Below, piece by piece: positions 2,729 through 20,240 of a stretch of DNA of 20,240 nt (position 1 is the first letter of the stretch; each line of letters begins with the position of its first letter). This stretch comes from a virus, in IMG/VR virus record IMGVR_UViG_3300047322_001102, positions 1 through 20,240 of that record. One strand, given 5' to 3'. The notes beneath the pieces were generated by a model. The model was not told the origin of the DNA, ran no database searches, and saw only the letters and a list, made by a program, of their open reading frames with translations. The translations under genes were made by a program, and so were the position numbers.

Positions 2729-3886
2729 TTAGGTGCGCTGAGCACGATTCACGACCTCGTCAGTCTTGTTGTCAGTCATGTCGGTCCCCAGCATACGGTC
2801 CATGCCATCGGCTGCGTGACGTTTCGCGGCTTCGGCGATCCCGCCGTAGACGTCCACGGTGGTGCTGATGGTCGAATGCCCGAGCATCGACATCACCTGC
2901 CGGAGGTCACCGCCCGACTGCTCGAGCATCAGCGAGGCGGCGGTATGGCGCAGGTCGTGGAACCGAACCTGGGGCAGGCCCGCGGCCTTGAGGGCAGCCT
3001 GGAACTCGCGGGTCACCTCGGCGGCGGGCAGCGGCCTGCCGTCAGGCCGGGCGAACACGACCGTTGCGCTGGTGGCCTGGCTCCGGTGCTGGGTGAGCGC
3101 CTCGATCGCCAGCTGCGAGAGCGGCAGCGTGCGCCGGCTGCGCTCGGTCTTGGGCTCGTCCCAGGCGAAGGTGCGCGGGCCCAGCTGGCGCAGGCTGGCG
3201 TTCACGGTCACCGTGCCGCGCCGCAGATCCACCTGCGGCCAGCGCAGGCCGAGGAGCTCGCCGCGGCGCATGCCGGTGGTCAGGGCGAGCACGTACAGGG
3301 CGTGGCGCTGATGCTTCGCCGTGGCCTCGAGGAAGGCGCGGGCCTCCTCGAGCGTGAGCGGGCGGACCGGCCGCCGCACCACCCTGGGCGAACGGATGAG
3401 GCGCGCCACGTTGCGGTCCGTGATCTCCCAGCGGACCGCCGCACCGAGCGCGCCCCGCAGGATCTTGAGCGCGTGCTTGGCCGTCTGCGGCGAGCGCTGC
3501 TCGAGGACCAGGGCGACCATGCGCTGGACGTCGGCAGCCTCCAGCGCGGCGATGCGGATGTCGCCGATGGCGGGCGCGATCCACAGCTCAGCGACGCTCC
3601 GGTACGCCTCCAGCGTCCGCGGCCTCAACTGGTGGGCCGCCTCGTCCGCCAGCCAGCGGTCCAGGAACCCGGCCACCGTCTCGCGGCTTGCGGGCCGGCG
3701 GGAAGTAGACGACGTCGGCAGTTCCCGGAGGCGGCGCCGGACGTCCTCCGGGTCGGTCCCGGTCACGTAGCGCCTGCCGATGCCCGGGATGGAAAGGCTT
3801 CCGATCCAGCGGCCGTCGCTCGCCCGCTGGTACATCGTCCCGGTCCCCCAGGCGCGGCGGGGTCTCTCGCTGTTCGAGCCAGGCAT
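2729..3886 (-). CDS. int: Tyrosine recombinase integrase
   Basis: This is a 385-residue integrase. N-terminal residues 10-45 (RRAWGTGTMYQRASDGRW) are the arm-binding type common in actinophage integrases; residues about 65-155 are the SAM-like core-binding domain (ETVAGFLDRWL onward); the catalytic domain follows. Catalytic residues visible are Arg207 in TTGMRRGE, Lys246 in EPKTERSRR, His310 and Arg313 in FHDLRHT, His337 in MLGHST and the nucleophile Tyr347 in TVDVYGG. All are present, so the enzyme looks functional. Its stop codon touches the tRNA-derived core, and one pair of candidate arm sites lies within its last codons. The ATG at 3886 is inside the longer excisionase frame, implying coupled translation. 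Confidence 0.97.
   Translation of the reverse strand: MPGSNSERPRRAWGTGTMYQRASDGRWIGSLSIPGIGRRYVTGTDPEDVRRRLRELPTSSTSRRPASRETVAGFLDRWLADEAAHQLRPRTLEAYRSVAELWIAPAIGDIRIAALEAADVQRMVALVLEQRSPQTAKHALKILRGALGAAVRWEITDRNVARLIRSPRVVRRPVRPLTLEEARAFLEATAKHQRHALYVLALTTGMRRGELLGLRWPQVDLRRGTVTVNASLRQLGPRTFAWDEPKTERSRRTLPLSQLAIEALTQHRSQATSATVVFARPDGRPLPAAEVTREFQAALKAAGLPQVRFHDLRHTAASLMLEQSGGDLRQVMSMLGHSTISTTVDVYGGIAEAAKRHAADGMDRMLGTDMTDNKTDEVVNRAQRT
2757..2780. repeat. Candidate integrase arm-type sites (right pair)
   Basis: Two tandem 12-bp units, TCGTCAGTCTTG (2757-2768) and TTGTCAGTCATG (2769-2780), lie inside the last codons of the integrase. The second unit plus neighbours matches a 15-bp stretch at 2624-2638 exactly. 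Together with the left pair they bracket the core in the same orientation. Confidence 0.6.
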
Positions 3887-9160: not shown

Positions 9161-11677
9161 TCAGTACGCCAGCAGGGCGGATGTGTTGAGCATCGCGCCG
9201 CTGTCGAGCTCGATCCAGGGTGCGCCGGCGGGCGTGGCCTCGAGGTTGTAGTTGAGGGCCCAGGAGCGGGCGCCGCTGTTCATCTCGCCCTGCAGCCCGG
9301 TGATGATGGCCGGCTGTGAGCTGATGCCCCAGCGCGCGGCGACGAGCGTGACGTGGTCGCCGATCCTGCGCTGGAGGCTGGACGGGAAGCGCTGCTCGAC
9401 GCGCACGGTGGGCTGCGGCAGGCTGCCGGCGTAGCGCCAGTTGCGATGGTTGCCGATGCCCTCGGCCATGCCCGGCGAGCCGATATAGGGCGTCTGGATC
9501 GAGGGGCCAGAACGGTCGCCGGCGTCCACGATGCCGGCGTAGTCGAGCTGCTCGGCGGTCATCTCGTCGCCCGGCAGCCAGGGTGTCGCGGCGAGGGCGA
9601 AGAAGGTGACCGTCAGCCCGGCGGTCGCGAACAGCTCCAGTACGAGGTGGCGCGGATAGGATTCGATCTCGGTGATGATCATCAGCGCCTGTGCGGCCGC
9701 GTTGACCGACAGCGAGGTACCCGACATGGGCACGCTGAAGTCGAACACGAACTGGGGCGATTCGCCCGCGGCCATCGAGAAGGGCACGAACGCGCCCGGG
9801 TAGATGCGCACCTTGCGCACCTTCTTGCGGCCCTTCTTGGTCCAGCGCGTGATGCGCTCGATGGTCATCTCGGGGATGTTGTCGTCGGTGCCGAAGGCGG
9901 GGTTGAGGTAGTGCAGGTAGGGGTCCTCGAGGTCGTGCGGCCAGACGGACGGGTCGACCGCGCTGACCACGTAGCCGAAGCCCGTGCCGTCGTCATCGGG
10001 TGCGCTGTCGCGCTCGTATGACTGCCACGGCACGTACTGGTGGTTCTCCAGCGCCTCGTCGCTGGCGAGCACGCCACTGAGGTCGGCGAAGTCGTCGTTG
10101 AATGTCTCGGCCGAGATGGTCGCGTCGGTGAGCGTGGCGCGCTCGATCGTGCTGTACTGCCAGAGCACCTCGGCCTGGGCATGCGGCTGCACCCAGTGGA
10201 GTGTGCCGGTGGCCTCGTTGTAGGCCTCCAGCACCGAGAGCGCCGACTGCGATTCGTTGCCGCCGAAGAAGTAGCTCGACTCGAGGCCCAGCGTGGTGAG
10301 GTTGAGCCGCGAGCCGGGCACCGACTGCTGCAGGGCGATCCGGCGCATGTCGCGGTAGCTCTCGTTCTCGAGGAAGCCGATCGAGAAGTCGAGCTGCCCG
10401 ATGTCGAAGAGCGGGTCCTGGCCGCTGAGCTCGGTGACGAGCGCGTCGCCGTCGGGCACGATCCGCCGGACGGTGCCGTAGAAGAGCGGGTAGATGACAT
10501 TGGCGTAGGTCGCCCGCGCCCAGATCCGGCGGCCGGCCTTGAGCAGTCCCGCCAGCGGGGAGGCGGCGTTCTGGGGGAAGAAGCGGCGGCCCGAATCGTT
10601 GAGCGTGACCTGGAAGGTGCCCGGTGGCATGCGCGGCGACTGGCCCTGCTGCCCCTGCGTCCAGGTCATCGTGGCGAGGTACGGCGAATCGACCACGTCG
10701 AGGGTATCGAACACCTCGACCAGGCCGAAGCGCATGGTCACCACCGCAGCCGAGGCGTTGGAGATCGCGGCGCAGGCATCGCGCCGGTTGGCCGAGGGCG
10801 ACCAGTCGAGCTCGAAGATCTGCCACGCGGTGGTGAGCGCGAAGGTTGCATCGGCGCGATCGGCGGGCGTGCCCAGCGAGCCGAAGCGGAGGCGCATGTT
10901 GGCGACGCCCGAGACGGTGCACGCCGCCACCCGGAGGCGGTAGGTGCGGAACTGTGAGAAGAGGCTGTTGCCCAGCGAGTAGCCCGCGCCGCTGCCGCTG
11001 ACCGCCGTGGTGACGAGGGTGGCGCTGTGCGGGTCCGAGGCGTCCATGCTGACCGCGACCCGCGTGAGGCTGGTGGGGGCAGCGGCGATGGCGGCGCCGC
11101 CGATGTCCCAGCCGGTCGTGTCGGCGCGGAAGTTGCCGTTCTCCAGCTGCGAGAAGGAATCGAGGGTGTAGACGCGCACGTTGTCGATGCGCACCGTCAG
11201 CGCAGCCGCGTAGCCGTTGGTGATCGCCAGCTGGACGTCGGTGCGGTTCGCGGTCGGCTGCCAGACCACGCGGTAGGGCGTCCACTTGTCACGCAGCACG
11301 ATGTCCTGCTCGGCCTGGTCAGCAGAGCCTGCCGAGCCGAGGATCAGCCGCGCACGCGCGGCCCCGCTGACCTGCTTGAGGTACACGAGCGCCACGTAGG
11401 CCGTGCCGTAGGTGGCGTGGGCAAAATAGATGTCGGGCGAGAGGTCGACGTGGACGCCCGACATGTCGGTGGCCGTGGTCACCAGCTCGCCGCAGGCCGT
11501 GCCGGTCTGGAAGTCGGTGGTGATGCGCGTGATGGAGCTGCCCGCGGCATTGATGCCCGCCCCGATCTGCCAGCTGCCGGTCGTGGCCTCGAAGCCCGGG
11601 TTGTTGATGCGGTTGTACTGCTCGGGCTGCCACAGCACCCGAACGTGCGGCAGCGGCGTGTCGTCGTAGACGGTCAC
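9161..11677 (-). CDS. Tail hub/minor tail protein with two CBM4/9-like domains
   Basis: This is an 838-residue protein from GTG 11677, overlapping the tape measure stop (GTGA). Residues 1-22 precede two tandem galactose-binding-like modules: residues about 23-165 (NRINNPGFEATTGSWQIGAG ... VRIDNVRVYTLD) and about 170-310 (LENGNFRADTTGWDIGG ... MRFGLVEVFDT). Both have the 'N-G-F-E ... GW' opening and 'VRVYD'-like close of CBM4/9 modules. From about residue 320 the protein resembles siphophage hub/baseplate proteins: PGTFQVTLNDSGRRFFPQNA then LLKAGRRIWARATY and YPLFYGTVRRI. The modules could bind surface polysaccharide. An apparent longer upstream frame overlaps the tape measure gene and was not used. 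Confidence 0.78.
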   Translation of the reverse strand: MTVYDDTPLPHVRVLWQPEQYNRINNPGFEATTGSWQIGAGINAAGSSITRITTDFQTGTACGELVTTATDMSGVHVDLSPDIYFAHATYGTAYVALVYLKQVSGAARARLILGSAGSADQAEQDIVLRDKWTPYRVVWQPTANRTDVQLAITNGYAAALTVRIDNVRVYTLDSFSQLENGNFRADTTGWDIGGAAIAAAPTSLTRVAVSMDASDPHSATLVTTAVSGSGAGYSLGNSLFSQFRTYRLRVAACTVSGVANMRLRFGSLGTPADRADATFALTTAWQIFELDWSPSANRRDACAAISNASAAVVTMRFGLVEVFDTLDVVDSPYLATMTWTQGQQGQSPRMPPGTFQVTLNDSGRRFFPQNAASPLAGLLKAGRRIWARATYANVIYPLFYGTVRRIVPDGDALVTELSGQDPLFDIGQLDFSIGFLENESYRDMRRIALQQSVPGSRLNLTTLGLESSYFFGGNESQSALSVLEAYNEATGTLHWVQPHAQAEVLWQYSTIERATLTDATISAETFNDDFADLSGVLASDEALENHQYVPWQSYERDSAPDDDGTGFGYVVSAVDPSVWPHDLEDPYLHYLNPAFGTDDNIPEMTIERITRWTKKGRKKVRKVRIYPGAFVPFSMAAGESPQFVFDFSVPMSGTSLSVNAAAQALMIITEIESYPRHLVLELFATAGLTVTFFALAATPWLPGDEMTAEQLDYAGIVDAGDRSGPSIQTPYIGSPGMAEGIGNHRNWRYAGSLPQPTVRVEQRFPSSLQRRIGDHVTLVAARWGISSQPAIITGLQGEMNSGARSWALNYNLEATPAGAPWIELDSGAMLNTSALLAY

Positions 11678-17183: not shown

Positions 17184-17220
17184 GCGGCGGGCAGAGGCAA
17201 GGGGTGACGCTGCCCGCCGC
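17184..17220 (-). terminator. Strong hairpin directly downstream of the capsid gene
   Basis: Perfect 11-bp arms GCGGCGGGCAG (17184-17194) and CTGCCCGCCGC (17210-17220) enclose a 15-base loop, starting six bases beyond the capsid stop. There is no U-tract. It probably acts as a partial terminator or protects the 3' end of capsid mRNA, separating high capsid output from the connector genes. Confidence 0.7.
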
Positions 17221-17226
17221 AGTGGA

Positions 17227-18708
17227 TTAGGCGACCTTGACCTGGCGGCCGGCGTCGGCGTTGACCGACTTGGCCGTGTTGCGCCAGTAGGTGAGCACGC
17301 CCCGCTGGAGCGTGGGGAAGCTGGTGGTGGCGTCGAACATCTGGGGGATGACCTCGACGTTCATGCCGATGCGGTCGACGATGATGTACGAGCTGGGATC
17401 GACGAGCACTGCGTTGATCGAGCCCGTAGTGGTCAGCGTCGAGGTGGCGCTGGGCGTCTCCCAGACGGGGTAGCCGAGCAGGTACAGCCCGGTGTTGCTG
17501 CTGCCGTTGGGCGGCGTCATCGGGTTGAGCTGGCCGTTGATGGCGCCCGGGAACTGGATGCCGGCACCCGACCAGTAGCGGTACGTGGTGTCGGCCAGTT
17601 GCAGCGTGCGGATCGTGGGCCGTGACATGAACCAGGCCGCGCGGGCCCGGAAGCGCAGCGGCAGCGCGGCCTCGGCGGCCGTGAAGTCGGCCAGCACCGT
17701 GGTCGACGCAGTGGCCGTGTTGACGGCGGTGTAGGCGGTGTTGAGGAACATGCCCTGGGGGAACACCGTGGCGCCCGTGCCCAGCGTGAACTGGTTCTCC
17801 TCGTAGGTGTCCTTCGATTCGGCGAAGACCTTGGTCAGCTCCTCGCCGATGTCGGGGCGGTCCTGCATGGTCTCGATCGAGAGCGTCGCGAAGCCCTTGC
17901 AGGTCTGCACGGTGTAGGTCGGCTGGCCGAAGGTGGGGCCGCCCTCAGTGGCCGGTGAGGCCTCGAGGCCGTAGGAGACGGTGATCGCGCCCACGGTCAC
18001 GGTGCGCCAGTTGTTGCCGTTGGTGATGGTCTCCTGGCGGCACGTCGCGCGGTAGGGGTTCTGGGCCGTCCAGGCGCCGATGTGGATCATGGTCGGGTCG
18101 AACACGTACGGCACCGCGAAGCCGCCGGTGGTGGTGGTGCCGGTGACGGCCAGGGCCGCGGCGCGCTTCTCCTCGGGCGTGGCCATGGATTCCTTGCCCG
18201 CGAGGTACTTGTTGAAATACCGGCGGTAGGGGGCTCCGCCCGTGGTGACCACGCGGAGCGCCGTGTCGCCGGCGCCCTCGGCGCCCTCGTCGCGGTACTC
18301 GATGATGTGGGTGAGCGCGTCGAGGTCGGCGCCCTTGGGCATCTTCGCGCTGTCGATCGAGCGCCGCGCGTAGTCGCGCAGCTTCTGGGCGTACTCGTCG
18401 CGCGAGCGCGTCGAGTGGCGCAGCTGCTCGACGTCGTAGATGTCCTCGCGCGGCTCGAGGATCACGTTGGGCGGTGTCACGGTGACGCAGTTCTGGGGCC
18501 GCTGCGAGAGGCTCGTGACGTACGCCTTGCGCTCCTCATAGGCGGCCTGGTCGGCTTCGAGCCTGGCCAGCTCGGCCTTGTCGGTGTCCCAACGCGCCTG
18601 CACTGCCGCGGGCAGCGTGCCGGTGTACTCGGTGCTCAGCCGGTCGAGCCCTGAATGAAGCTCGCCGATGCGCGACACGCGCTCCTCGGGGGTGGGATCT
18701 TCTGCCAT
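17227..18708 (-). CDS. Major capsid protein from an internal start (nested in the protease-capsid gene)
   Basis: ATG 18708 (Met250 of the long frame) begins MAEDPTPEERVSRIGELHSG and is preceded by AAGGAGA with nine bases of spacing, a strong ribosome-binding site in the middle of a coding frame. The product would be 493 residues: a helical delta/scaffold region (residues 1-75 of this product, with KAELARLEADQAAYEER), a variable segment, and the HK97-fold capsid (TGTTTTGGFAVPYVFDPTMI, RPDIGEELTKVFAESKDTYE, NQFTLGTGATVFPQGMF). This start matches where ordinary phages begin the separate capsid gene. Whether the full-length fusion, this shorter form or both are made is inference. Confidence 0.65.
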   Translation of the reverse strand: MAEDPTPEERVSRIGELHSGLDRLSTEYTGTLPAAVQARWDTDKAELARLEADQAAYEERKAYVTSLSQRPQNCVTVTPPNVILEPREDIYDVEQLRHSTRSRDEYAQKLRDYARRSIDSAKMPKGADLDALTHIIEYRDEGAEGAGDTALRVVTTGGAPYRRYFNKYLAGKESMATPEEKRAAALAVTGTTTTGGFAVPYVFDPTMIHIGAWTAQNPYRATCRQETITNGNNWRTVTVGAITVSYGLEASPATEGGPTFGQPTYTVQTCKGFATLSIETMQDRPDIGEELTKVFAESKDTYEENQFTLGTGATVFPQGMFLNTAYTAVNTATASTTVLADFTAAEAALPLRFRARAAWFMSRPTIRTLQLADTTYRYWSGAGIQFPGAINGQLNPMTPPNGSSNTGLYLLGYPVWETPSATSTLTTTGSINAVLVDPSSYIIVDRIGMNVEVIPQMFDATTSFPTLQRGVLTYWRNTAKSVNADAGRQVKVA

Positions 18709-19455
18709 TGCTCGGTTCTCCTTGGGTGTCGGGGTGACGGCTGGAGTGTCCGAACGCGTCGGCTGCGGGGCAGTGGCGGGCGGCGGCTCCGGGCTGGCGG
18801 CTCCTCGCGGAGTGCGAGCGACCTGGGCTGAGCGCAGGAGCGTCTCGAACGATTCGGGATCGCGGCTGCGGCGGTAGAAGGCGTCGGTGGTGGAGCGCAC
18901 GCCGGCGGTGGCCGCCGGGTTGGCAGGAAACGTGACCGGCCCGAACTCGTAGACCTGGGCCTCGGTGATGCGGCGCTCGGGGATGCCCTCGGGATTGGCC
19001 TCGGAGCGCGCCGGCCTGTGGTTCCATTCGTCGGACTGGACGCTGAAGCGGAACGAGGAACCGTAGGCGCCCGCACGCAGGCCGTTCATCAGCAGGTCGG
19101 GGATGCCGTCGAAGAGGCCGACCTCGTAGGCCGCGCCCTGCTCATCCTCCGAGAGTGATGCGATGCGGCCCAGGATCATGTTGCCCACCTGGGGATCCTG
19201 GCCGTGGTCGAAGAGCACGCGCATGGGCGCCTTGCCGGCCATGCTCTTGCGGATCGTCTGGGTGAACGCACCCGGAGCGACCGTCTCGAGAAAGCGGCCC
19301 TCCATCGCCGAATCGACCTCGTAGGGCTGGCCGAAGGTCGAGAAGTGGCCGTACATCGTGCGGCCGTCGCCGAGCTCGGGCGCATCGCCGATGGCGCGGG
19401 TGACGGGGAACGGCAGGCGCGCCGGTTCGAGCTGGCTGAGATCGTCAAGGTTCAC
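17227..19455 (-). CDS. Prohead protease fused in frame to HK97-type major capsid protein
   Basis: This is a 742-residue frame from GTG 19455, overlapping the portal stop (GTGA), with GGAGG upstream. Residues 15-190 are a U35 prohead protease: GRTMYGHFSTFGQPYEVDS, His84 in VLFDHGQD and Ser133/134 in RAGAYGSSFRF; a third motif (FGPVTFPANP) is present. Residues 212-249 form a Pro/Thr/Ala-rich linker. From 250 it is delta domain plus capsid. The protease normally cleaves the capsid N-terminal region during maturation. The fusion has no frame break. The linker looks like the former end of a separate protease gene that lost its stop. An internal start at 18708 may release the capsid chain independently. 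Confidence 0.9.
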   Translation of the reverse strand: MNLDDLSQLEPARLPFPVTRAIGDAPELGDGRTMYGHFSTFGQPYEVDSAMEGRFLETVAPGAFTQTIRKSMAGKAPMRVLFDHGQDPQVGNMILGRIASLSEDEQGAAYEVGLFDGIPDLLMNGLRAGAYGSSFRFSVQSDEWNHRPARSEANPEGIPERRITEAQVYEFGPVTFPANPAATAGVRSTTDAFYRRSRDPESFETLLRSAQVARTPRGAASPEPPPATAPQPTRSDTPAVTPTPKENRAMAEDPTPEERVSRIGELHSGLDRLSTEYTGTLPAAVQARWDTDKAELARLEADQAAYEERKAYVTSLSQRPQNCVTVTPPNVILEPREDIYDVEQLRHSTRSRDEYAQKLRDYARRSIDSAKMPKGADLDALTHIIEYRDEGAEGAGDTALRVVTTGGAPYRRYFNKYLAGKESMATPEEKRAAALAVTGTTTTGGFAVPYVFDPTMIHIGAWTAQNPYRATCRQETITNGNNWRTVTVGAITVSYGLEASPATEGGPTFGQPTYTVQTCKGFATLSIETMQDRPDIGEELTKVFAESKDTYEENQFTLGTGATVFPQGMFLNTAYTAVNTATASTTVLADFTAAEAALPLRFRARAAWFMSRPTIRTLQLADTTYRYWSGAGIQFPGAINGQLNPMTPPNGSSNTGLYLLGYPVWETPSATSTLTTTGSINAVLVDPSSYIIVDRIGMNVEVIPQMFDATTSFPTLQRGVLTYWRNTAKSVNADAGRQVKVA

Positions 19456-20240
19456 GGCTTGCCTCCGACTGGCATGGGTGTCTTGCCGTTCGTGGCCGGC
19501 GGGGGAGTTGCTTCGAGTGGTGCCGTGCCCTCGGCCACGGGCTGCTCACCGGGCACTTCGCCGGCGGGCATCTTGGACGAGCCGGGTGCCTGGAGCTGGA
19601 CGCTGAAGAGGCCGCTGTGCTGGCCCACCAGCAGGCCCATGTCCTCGGCCTCGACGGCCTTGATGACGCTGTCGGCCTCGAAGCCCGAATCGACCAGCTG
19701 GCGGATGCTCTGCGCCTTCACGAACTCGATGTCCGCGGCATCCTTGCGGTCCTCGCGCAGGAAGCTGATGTCGCGGTCGTCGTACCACAGGCGCGAGCCG
19801 CCGGGCGGCCGCACGACCGTCTCCAGCGAGCCGGCCATGTTGCGCCACAGCGGCCGGATGGTGCGGTCGGCCACGAGGCGCCGGGCACTGCTGAAGTTGC
19901 CGGCGTTGAGGCTCGAGCCCTGGAGGCCCTCCGACAGGCCCACGATCACGGGATGGACGCCGGCCACGGCCGCGATGCGCGTCTCGCCGGCGCCCTGGGT
20001 GACCTTGAAGTCGAGCTGCTGGAAGTCCGAGCCGATGGGCACGGGCTTGGCGCCGGCGCCGAGGTAGAGCGTCTTGTAGGCGTTGGCGGCGCCCTTGTGG
20101 CCCGCCTCGAAGGCGGCGATCCACTGCTCGAAGGCCTGCAGGCCGATGCCCGGGTCGAGGCTGATGGCCATGTTCACGGTGGCGCCGTTCTCGAAGTAGG
20201 CCAGCTTGTGCGCCGTGGCCGCGCTGTCGGCCATCACCTC
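19452..20240 (-). CDS. HK97-family portal protein, 5' end outside window
   Basis: The frame is open to the right edge and ends at 19452, giving about 262 residues of the C-terminal part. Family motifs visible: AYKTLYLGAGAKPVPIGSDFQ, TRIAAVAGVHPVIVGLSEGL, SSLNAGNFSSARRLVADRTI and LWYDDRDISFLREDRKDAAD. These are typical of HK97-type portals, the dodecameric ring through which DNA enters the head. The C-terminal 45 residues are Pro/Gly-rich and probably disordered. Met and GTG codons near the right edge are internal, not starts. The stop overlaps the protease-capsid GTG by four bases. Confidence 0.93.
   Translation of the reverse strand, partial: EVMADSAATAHKLAYFENGATVNMAISLDPGIGLQAFEQWIAAFEAGHKGAANAYKTLYLGAGAKPVPIGSDFQQLDFKVTQGAGETRIAAVAGVHPVIVGLSEGLQGSSLNAGNFSSARRLVADRTIRPLWRNMAGSLETVVRPPGGSRLWYDDRDISFLREDRKDAADIEFVKAQSIRQLVDSGFEADSVIKAVEAEDMGLLVGQHSGLFSVQLQAPGSSKMPAGEVPGEQPVAEGTAPLEATPPPATNGKTPMPVGGKP

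Follow-up and report, generated by a model that had tools for sequence, protein, structure and literature searches.

A phage protease-capsid fusion gene with a conserved internal start that very probably also encodes its capsid protein separately

The fused prohead protease and major capsid protein (MCP) gene of the viral record IMGVR_UViG_3300047322_001102 (IMG/VR; positions 1 to 20,240, the whole stretch analysed here and called the window) is very probably a nested gene, in which one mRNA would give rise to both the full-length fusion and, from an internal in-frame start, a separate capsid chain carrying its N-terminal delta domain. This reading draws on features that are present in the sequences themselves: a single fused frame, an internal start with a Shine-Dalgarno (SD) sequence at the border between linker and delta domain, the conservation of this site among related fusions, and the appearance of comparable starts in fusion families that are unrelated. 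The relevant features of the window are the following.

19452-20240, minus strand: portal protein gene (PF04860), the upstream neighbour, cut by the window end
19462-19466, minus strand: SD sequence GGAGG serving the outer start (the GTG of the fusion) at a distance of 6 nt
17227-19455, minus strand: fused gene for S78 prohead protease, linker, delta domain and HK97-fold MCP; 742 aa, GTG start
18892-19365, minus strand: S78 protease domain, aa 31-188 (Peptidase_S78 in Pfam; confident AlphaFold2 fold)
18709-18804, minus strand: Pro/Ala/Thr-rich linker, about aa 218-249, predicted to be disordered (pLDDT about 35)
18718-18723, minus strand: internal SD sequence AAGGAG, read from the sequence and conserved in the family
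18706-18708, minus strand: internal start ATG (Met250), 9 nt after AAGGAG, in the least-structured region of the ORF
17227-18708, minus strand: proposed nested capsid gene (delta domain and MCP, 493 aa), in the same frame and equivalent to the separate capsid gene found in split relatives
18127-18708, minus strand: delta (scaffold-like) domain, with AlphaFold2 helices from aa 256
17230-18126, minus strand: HK97-fold capsid core, aa 444-742 (PF05065, TIGR01554, Foldseek match to 9lw6)

An initial annotation, made from the sequence alone, had placed protease and major capsid in one uninterrupted frame, and this holds: 742 codons are open from the GTG to the TAA stop at 17227-17229, and both Pfam domains score above their cut-offs. 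Peptidase_S78 (PF04586; aa 31-188, 66.7 bits, cut-off 21) assigns the N-terminal part to the S78 proteases, whereas the score for the narrower TIGR01543 equivalog (33.6 bits, 59 needed) lies below its cut-off; His84, Ser134 and Glu170 are invariant across 30 aligned fusions, fitting the His/Ser/Glu catalytic site of S78 enzymes. The C-terminal part is an HK97-fold MCP by Phage_capsid (PF05065; aa 444-707, 78.6 bits, cut-off 24.2), by TIGR01554 (111 bits, cut-off 27.5) and by a Foldseek fold match. Membership in the prohead protease/MCP fusion model NF045541 was rejected, the best match reaching 23.1 bits, in the protease part only, against a cut-off of 525. The start of the fused gene overlaps the portal stop (GTGA). 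Elsewhere in the window, a tyrosine-type integrase gene (PF00589) is found at 2729-3886 on the minus strand, and the phage is therefore probably temperate; two scans of genome contigs, carried out in search of the host, found no relative.

AlphaFold2, run with 30 fused sequences, models the protease with confidence, leaves the linker (aa 218-252) disordered and predicts helices from aa 256 as well as a capsid fold; the overall pTM of 0.47 makes the relative placement of the domains unreliable. In this model, Met250 sits where the disordered linker ends, and the first delta helix begins six residues further on. The closest solved relative found by Foldseek is the Mycofy1 capsid (9lw6, E 1.7e-17), with HK97 at about 1e-8. 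The modelled mature chain of 9lw6 covers about 290 of its 543 residues, which align with the capsid core of the window, and the N-terminal region that would match the delta domain is absent from this solved mature capsid, a chain length that fits removal of a delta domain. As the delta domain of the window protein is probably cut off as well, maturation would erase both N-termini, that of the fusion and that of the nested chain.

The internal site lies where the initial annotation had put it, with AAGGAG nine bases before codon 250, a spacing on the long side of optimal. The pattern AAGGAG-N5..10-(A/G)TG occurs three times in the whole window, always on the coding strand, and the other two occurrences (at 9161 and 6564) are ordinary gene starts; for the fused gene, a Markov model predicts 0.015 occurrences. 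Predicted mRNA structure at the site falls in the 1st percentile within the ORF. Synonymous shuffling with the amino acids held fixed nevertheless gives no significance for this single site (p = 0.81); AAG GAG are the usual Lys-Glu codons of the fused gene, so that the window site alone is weak evidence, and its significance is therefore drawn from relatives. A second candidate, AAGGAA followed at short spacing by an ATG (Met424), is seen near 18186 on the minus strand, just 5' of the capsid core (ESMATPEEK); Met424 is not conserved in most relatives.

In the proposed model, ribosomes starting at the GTG at 19455 would produce the protease-delta-capsid fusion, and those initiating in frame at 18708 (ATG) of the same mRNA would produce the delta-capsid chain alone. 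Because both chains share the capsid part, they would be able to co-assemble, the fusion chains equipping the prohead with a limited set of proteases, so that the protease would in effect encapsidate itself, and the nested chain serving as the supply of shell subunits. The packaged proteases would then cut off the delta domains and finally destroy themselves. A variant that differs only in the mRNA would place an internal promoter ahead of the same internal start, so that a shorter transcript carries the internal SD sequence, in the way that herpesviruses make a shorter product from an internal promoter (UL26.5). We consider this variant unlikely, as a scan of positions 17200-20240 found no sigma-70-like promoter, although scans of this kind have little power for GC-rich hosts.

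The evidence for a start at the junction comes from 52 distinct fused protease-capsid genes, including that of the window, collected by scans of IMG/VR and of phage records; among them are true homologues in the Rhodococcus phages REQ1, Madraxi, Jflix2 and Shagrat. A junction was scored as positive when an in-frame start whose anti-SD duplex reached -5 kcal/mol or lower was present between 12 codons before and 3 codons after the start of the delta domain, using a generic anti-SD sequence that may differ from that of the host. By this measure, 50 of the 52 genes have a start with an SD sequence at the junction; of the other 15-codon windows in these ORFs, 15.6% pass, and at the junction itself the +1 and +2 frames pass in 15 and 0 cases. 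Grouping the junctions at 60% identity yields 33 clusters, in 31 of which all members pass (binomial 4e-23), and synonymous shuffles combined over clusters give 6e-9 (median p) or 1.5e-7 (largest p per cluster), all of these values being nominal because the clusters are related. The two exceptions are L037, with a start/SD site 18 codons upstream, and L010 (Shagrat), with an ATG preceded by a weak SD sequence. The capsid model used 10 members trimmed at their proposed starts, and most of the other members were found without that choice.

What is conserved appears to be the site and not the peptide. The initial annotation had let its reading depend on whether AAGGAG and ATG are retained in relatives, and a start with an SD sequence is indeed kept while the surrounding linker residues differ, in fused members down to about 30% identity. 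The start codon varies (ATG in 24, GTG in 26 and TTG in 1), and the SD core is read in differing codon frames, as Lys-Glu, as Arg-Ser or as other pairs. At sites whose position is set by the residues downstream alone, Val is encoded by GTG in all 10 cases, compared with 31% of Val codons in general. Over the family, median mRNA structure at the internal site is in the 6th percentile and GC content in the 3rd, marking an AT-richer stretch. As a side observation, the Rhodococcus phage fusions (L007-L010) have a long linker between protease and delta domain, containing repeated units like WLDAEAEYRDAV and unlike the Pro/Ala linker of the window.

The relative output of the two starts is a separate matter. 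The proposal that the buried site makes the capsid separately gains from the conservation of the start and its SD sequence in fused relatives, but the accompanying expectation of few fusion and many capsid chains finds no support in the sequence. The anti-SD duplex of the outer GGAGG/GTG site (-9.5 kcal/mol) is stronger than that of the inner site (-8.3), and in 42 of 51 relatives the outer SD sequence at least equals the inner one, a count that is biased by using the best of several candidates. In the window, the inner site has the advantage of a better start codon and of less structured mRNA. Since the outer site is as strong or stronger, estimating the product ratio from SD strength was set aside, and any particular ratio of the two putative products goes beyond what the sequence supports.

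A comparable arrangement is seen outside this family. The fusions of Arthrobacter, Gordonia, Streptomyces, Lactococcus-1706 and Faecalibacterium phages form a family of their own, which the window protein did not reach in the phage search. In an alignment of 12 Arthrobacter/Lactococcus-1706-like members, every sequence has a start codon at one and the same internal column (9 ATG, 2 GTG, 1 TTG), with SD duplexes of -6.1 to -11.5, and three Microbacterium/Curtobacterium EE-like fusions have a junction ATG with GAGGA. In several of the Arthrobacter/Lactococcus-1706-like members, another strong internal start precedes a helical region that looks scaffold-like (L084 codon 241, L087 codon 246, L088 codon 254, L089 codon 165, L091 codon 244, L096 codon 171 and L095 codon 186); together with the conserved capsid start, this suggests, at the level of sequence, three nested products in these fusions.

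These data bear on a plain-fusion view of the gene, namely that translation yields nothing but the full-length chain, that the protease cuts itself free of the capsid once the shell has assembled, and that the internal site stays unused. Such a scheme would place the protease next to its substrate on a disordered linker, agrees with the strong SD sequence of the outer start, and is compatible with the window's own site having arisen by coding chance. We regard it as decidedly unlikely, however, because it leaves unexplained why a start with an SD sequence recurs at a single position in 50 of the 52 fused genes, whose linkers differ, and why the same pattern appears in an unrelated fusion family; in addition, a protease on every subunit would be expected to crowd the prohead.

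The nested reading also agrees with relatives in which protease and capsid are encoded separately. The free capsid genes of these split relatives begin at or near the position of the internal start in the fused genes, with a start and SD sequence there, so that the conservation asked for by the initial annotation extends to them. L006, L029 and L032 have protease and capsid genes that overlap in different frames, the capsid start (an ATG with AGGAG) falling within the 3' end of the protease gene; these three splits are possibly assembly errors, since one indel could restore the fusion, and safer cases are L034, with a gap between the genes, and the isolate phages L011 and L012. In the remaining split relatives, the two genes are adjacent or just separated. 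A capsid tree requires seven changes between the fused and split states, with the window nested among fused members, and because split relatives share the same start, fusion and fission probably proceed via frame changes near it. That the internal site is a mere relic of a recent fusion of two genes, no longer needed, would account for this shared start, but such a site would be expected to decay, and its retention in fused members about 30% identical, with the linker changing, makes this the least credible explanation and a very improbable one.

The protease part of the gene is less constant. In L041, L042, L043, L044 and L052, the capsid is preceded by a separate, overlapping gene for a protease that looks ClpP/S49-like by eye, a type seen only in these split relatives, and in L003, L004, L005 and L025 a different S78 subtype is fused to the same capsid family. 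On the sequence evidence, the capsid start is retained and proteases are swapped as a module. E. coli PhiR49_2 and Rhizobium 16-3, which gave protease matches, were dropped as fusions, as their genes are separate; the record of Rhizobium phage 16-3 (L100 3155-4421) contains an annotated ribosomal slip that extends the capsid protein.

In hundreds of phage records, protease-capsid fusion genes are annotated as one product. If they are nested, such annotations miss the main shell protein, and nesting would account for the packaging of a fused protease in a shell whose subunits do not each carry one. Whether protease-capsid fusions of tailed phages are in general nested and also encode the capsid alone, with perhaps three tiers and two internal starts in the Arthrobacter/Lactococcus-1706-like members (protease-scaffold-capsid, scaffold-capsid and capsid) and with capsid modules carrying their own ribosome-binding site through protease exchange, seems to us an evenly balanced question. 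Protease-capsid fusions and nested assembly genes are both known; a capsid that is itself nested in a protease-capsid fusion is apparently new, as no description of one was found in the literature searched, which covered few subscription papers.

That such fusions exist in some phages, as the initial annotation had stated, is well documented: genes for an MCP and protease fusion are annotated in many actinobacteriophages, in clusters AM, AU, AN, EE and DJ and in Rhodococcus RRH1 (PMC5513430, PMC9671004, PMC10652937). They likewise encode the protease and then the capsid in one frame, but are described or annotated as a single product, unlike the nested reading of the window gene, and PMC5513430 does not mention an internal start (the word 'internal' is absent). 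HK97 gp4/gp5 and the mycobacteriophage Mycofy1 (9lw6) share with the window an S78 protease and an HK97-fold capsid with a removable N-terminal delta domain, but their protease and capsid are separate genes, which are fused in the window. Salmonella phage Gifsy-2 reportedly has a tripartite gene (Effantin, 2010) with a ClpP-like protease, a scaffold-like region and the capsid, and thus resembles the window in combining all three in one coding region; membership in this type was rejected because the window protease is S78 and not ClpP-like, and we know of no reported internal start in the Gifsy-2 gene. In lambda C/Nu3 and Mu I/Z, an internal in-frame start in the protease gene yields a protease-free chain with the same C-terminus. 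The likeness to lambda drawn in the initial annotation therefore stands for the internal in-frame start, the SD sequence and the shared C-terminus, all present in the window by sequence, but does not extend to the product itself: the nested product of lambda and Mu is scaffold only, whereas the nested ORF of the window comprises the delta domain together with the capsid core.
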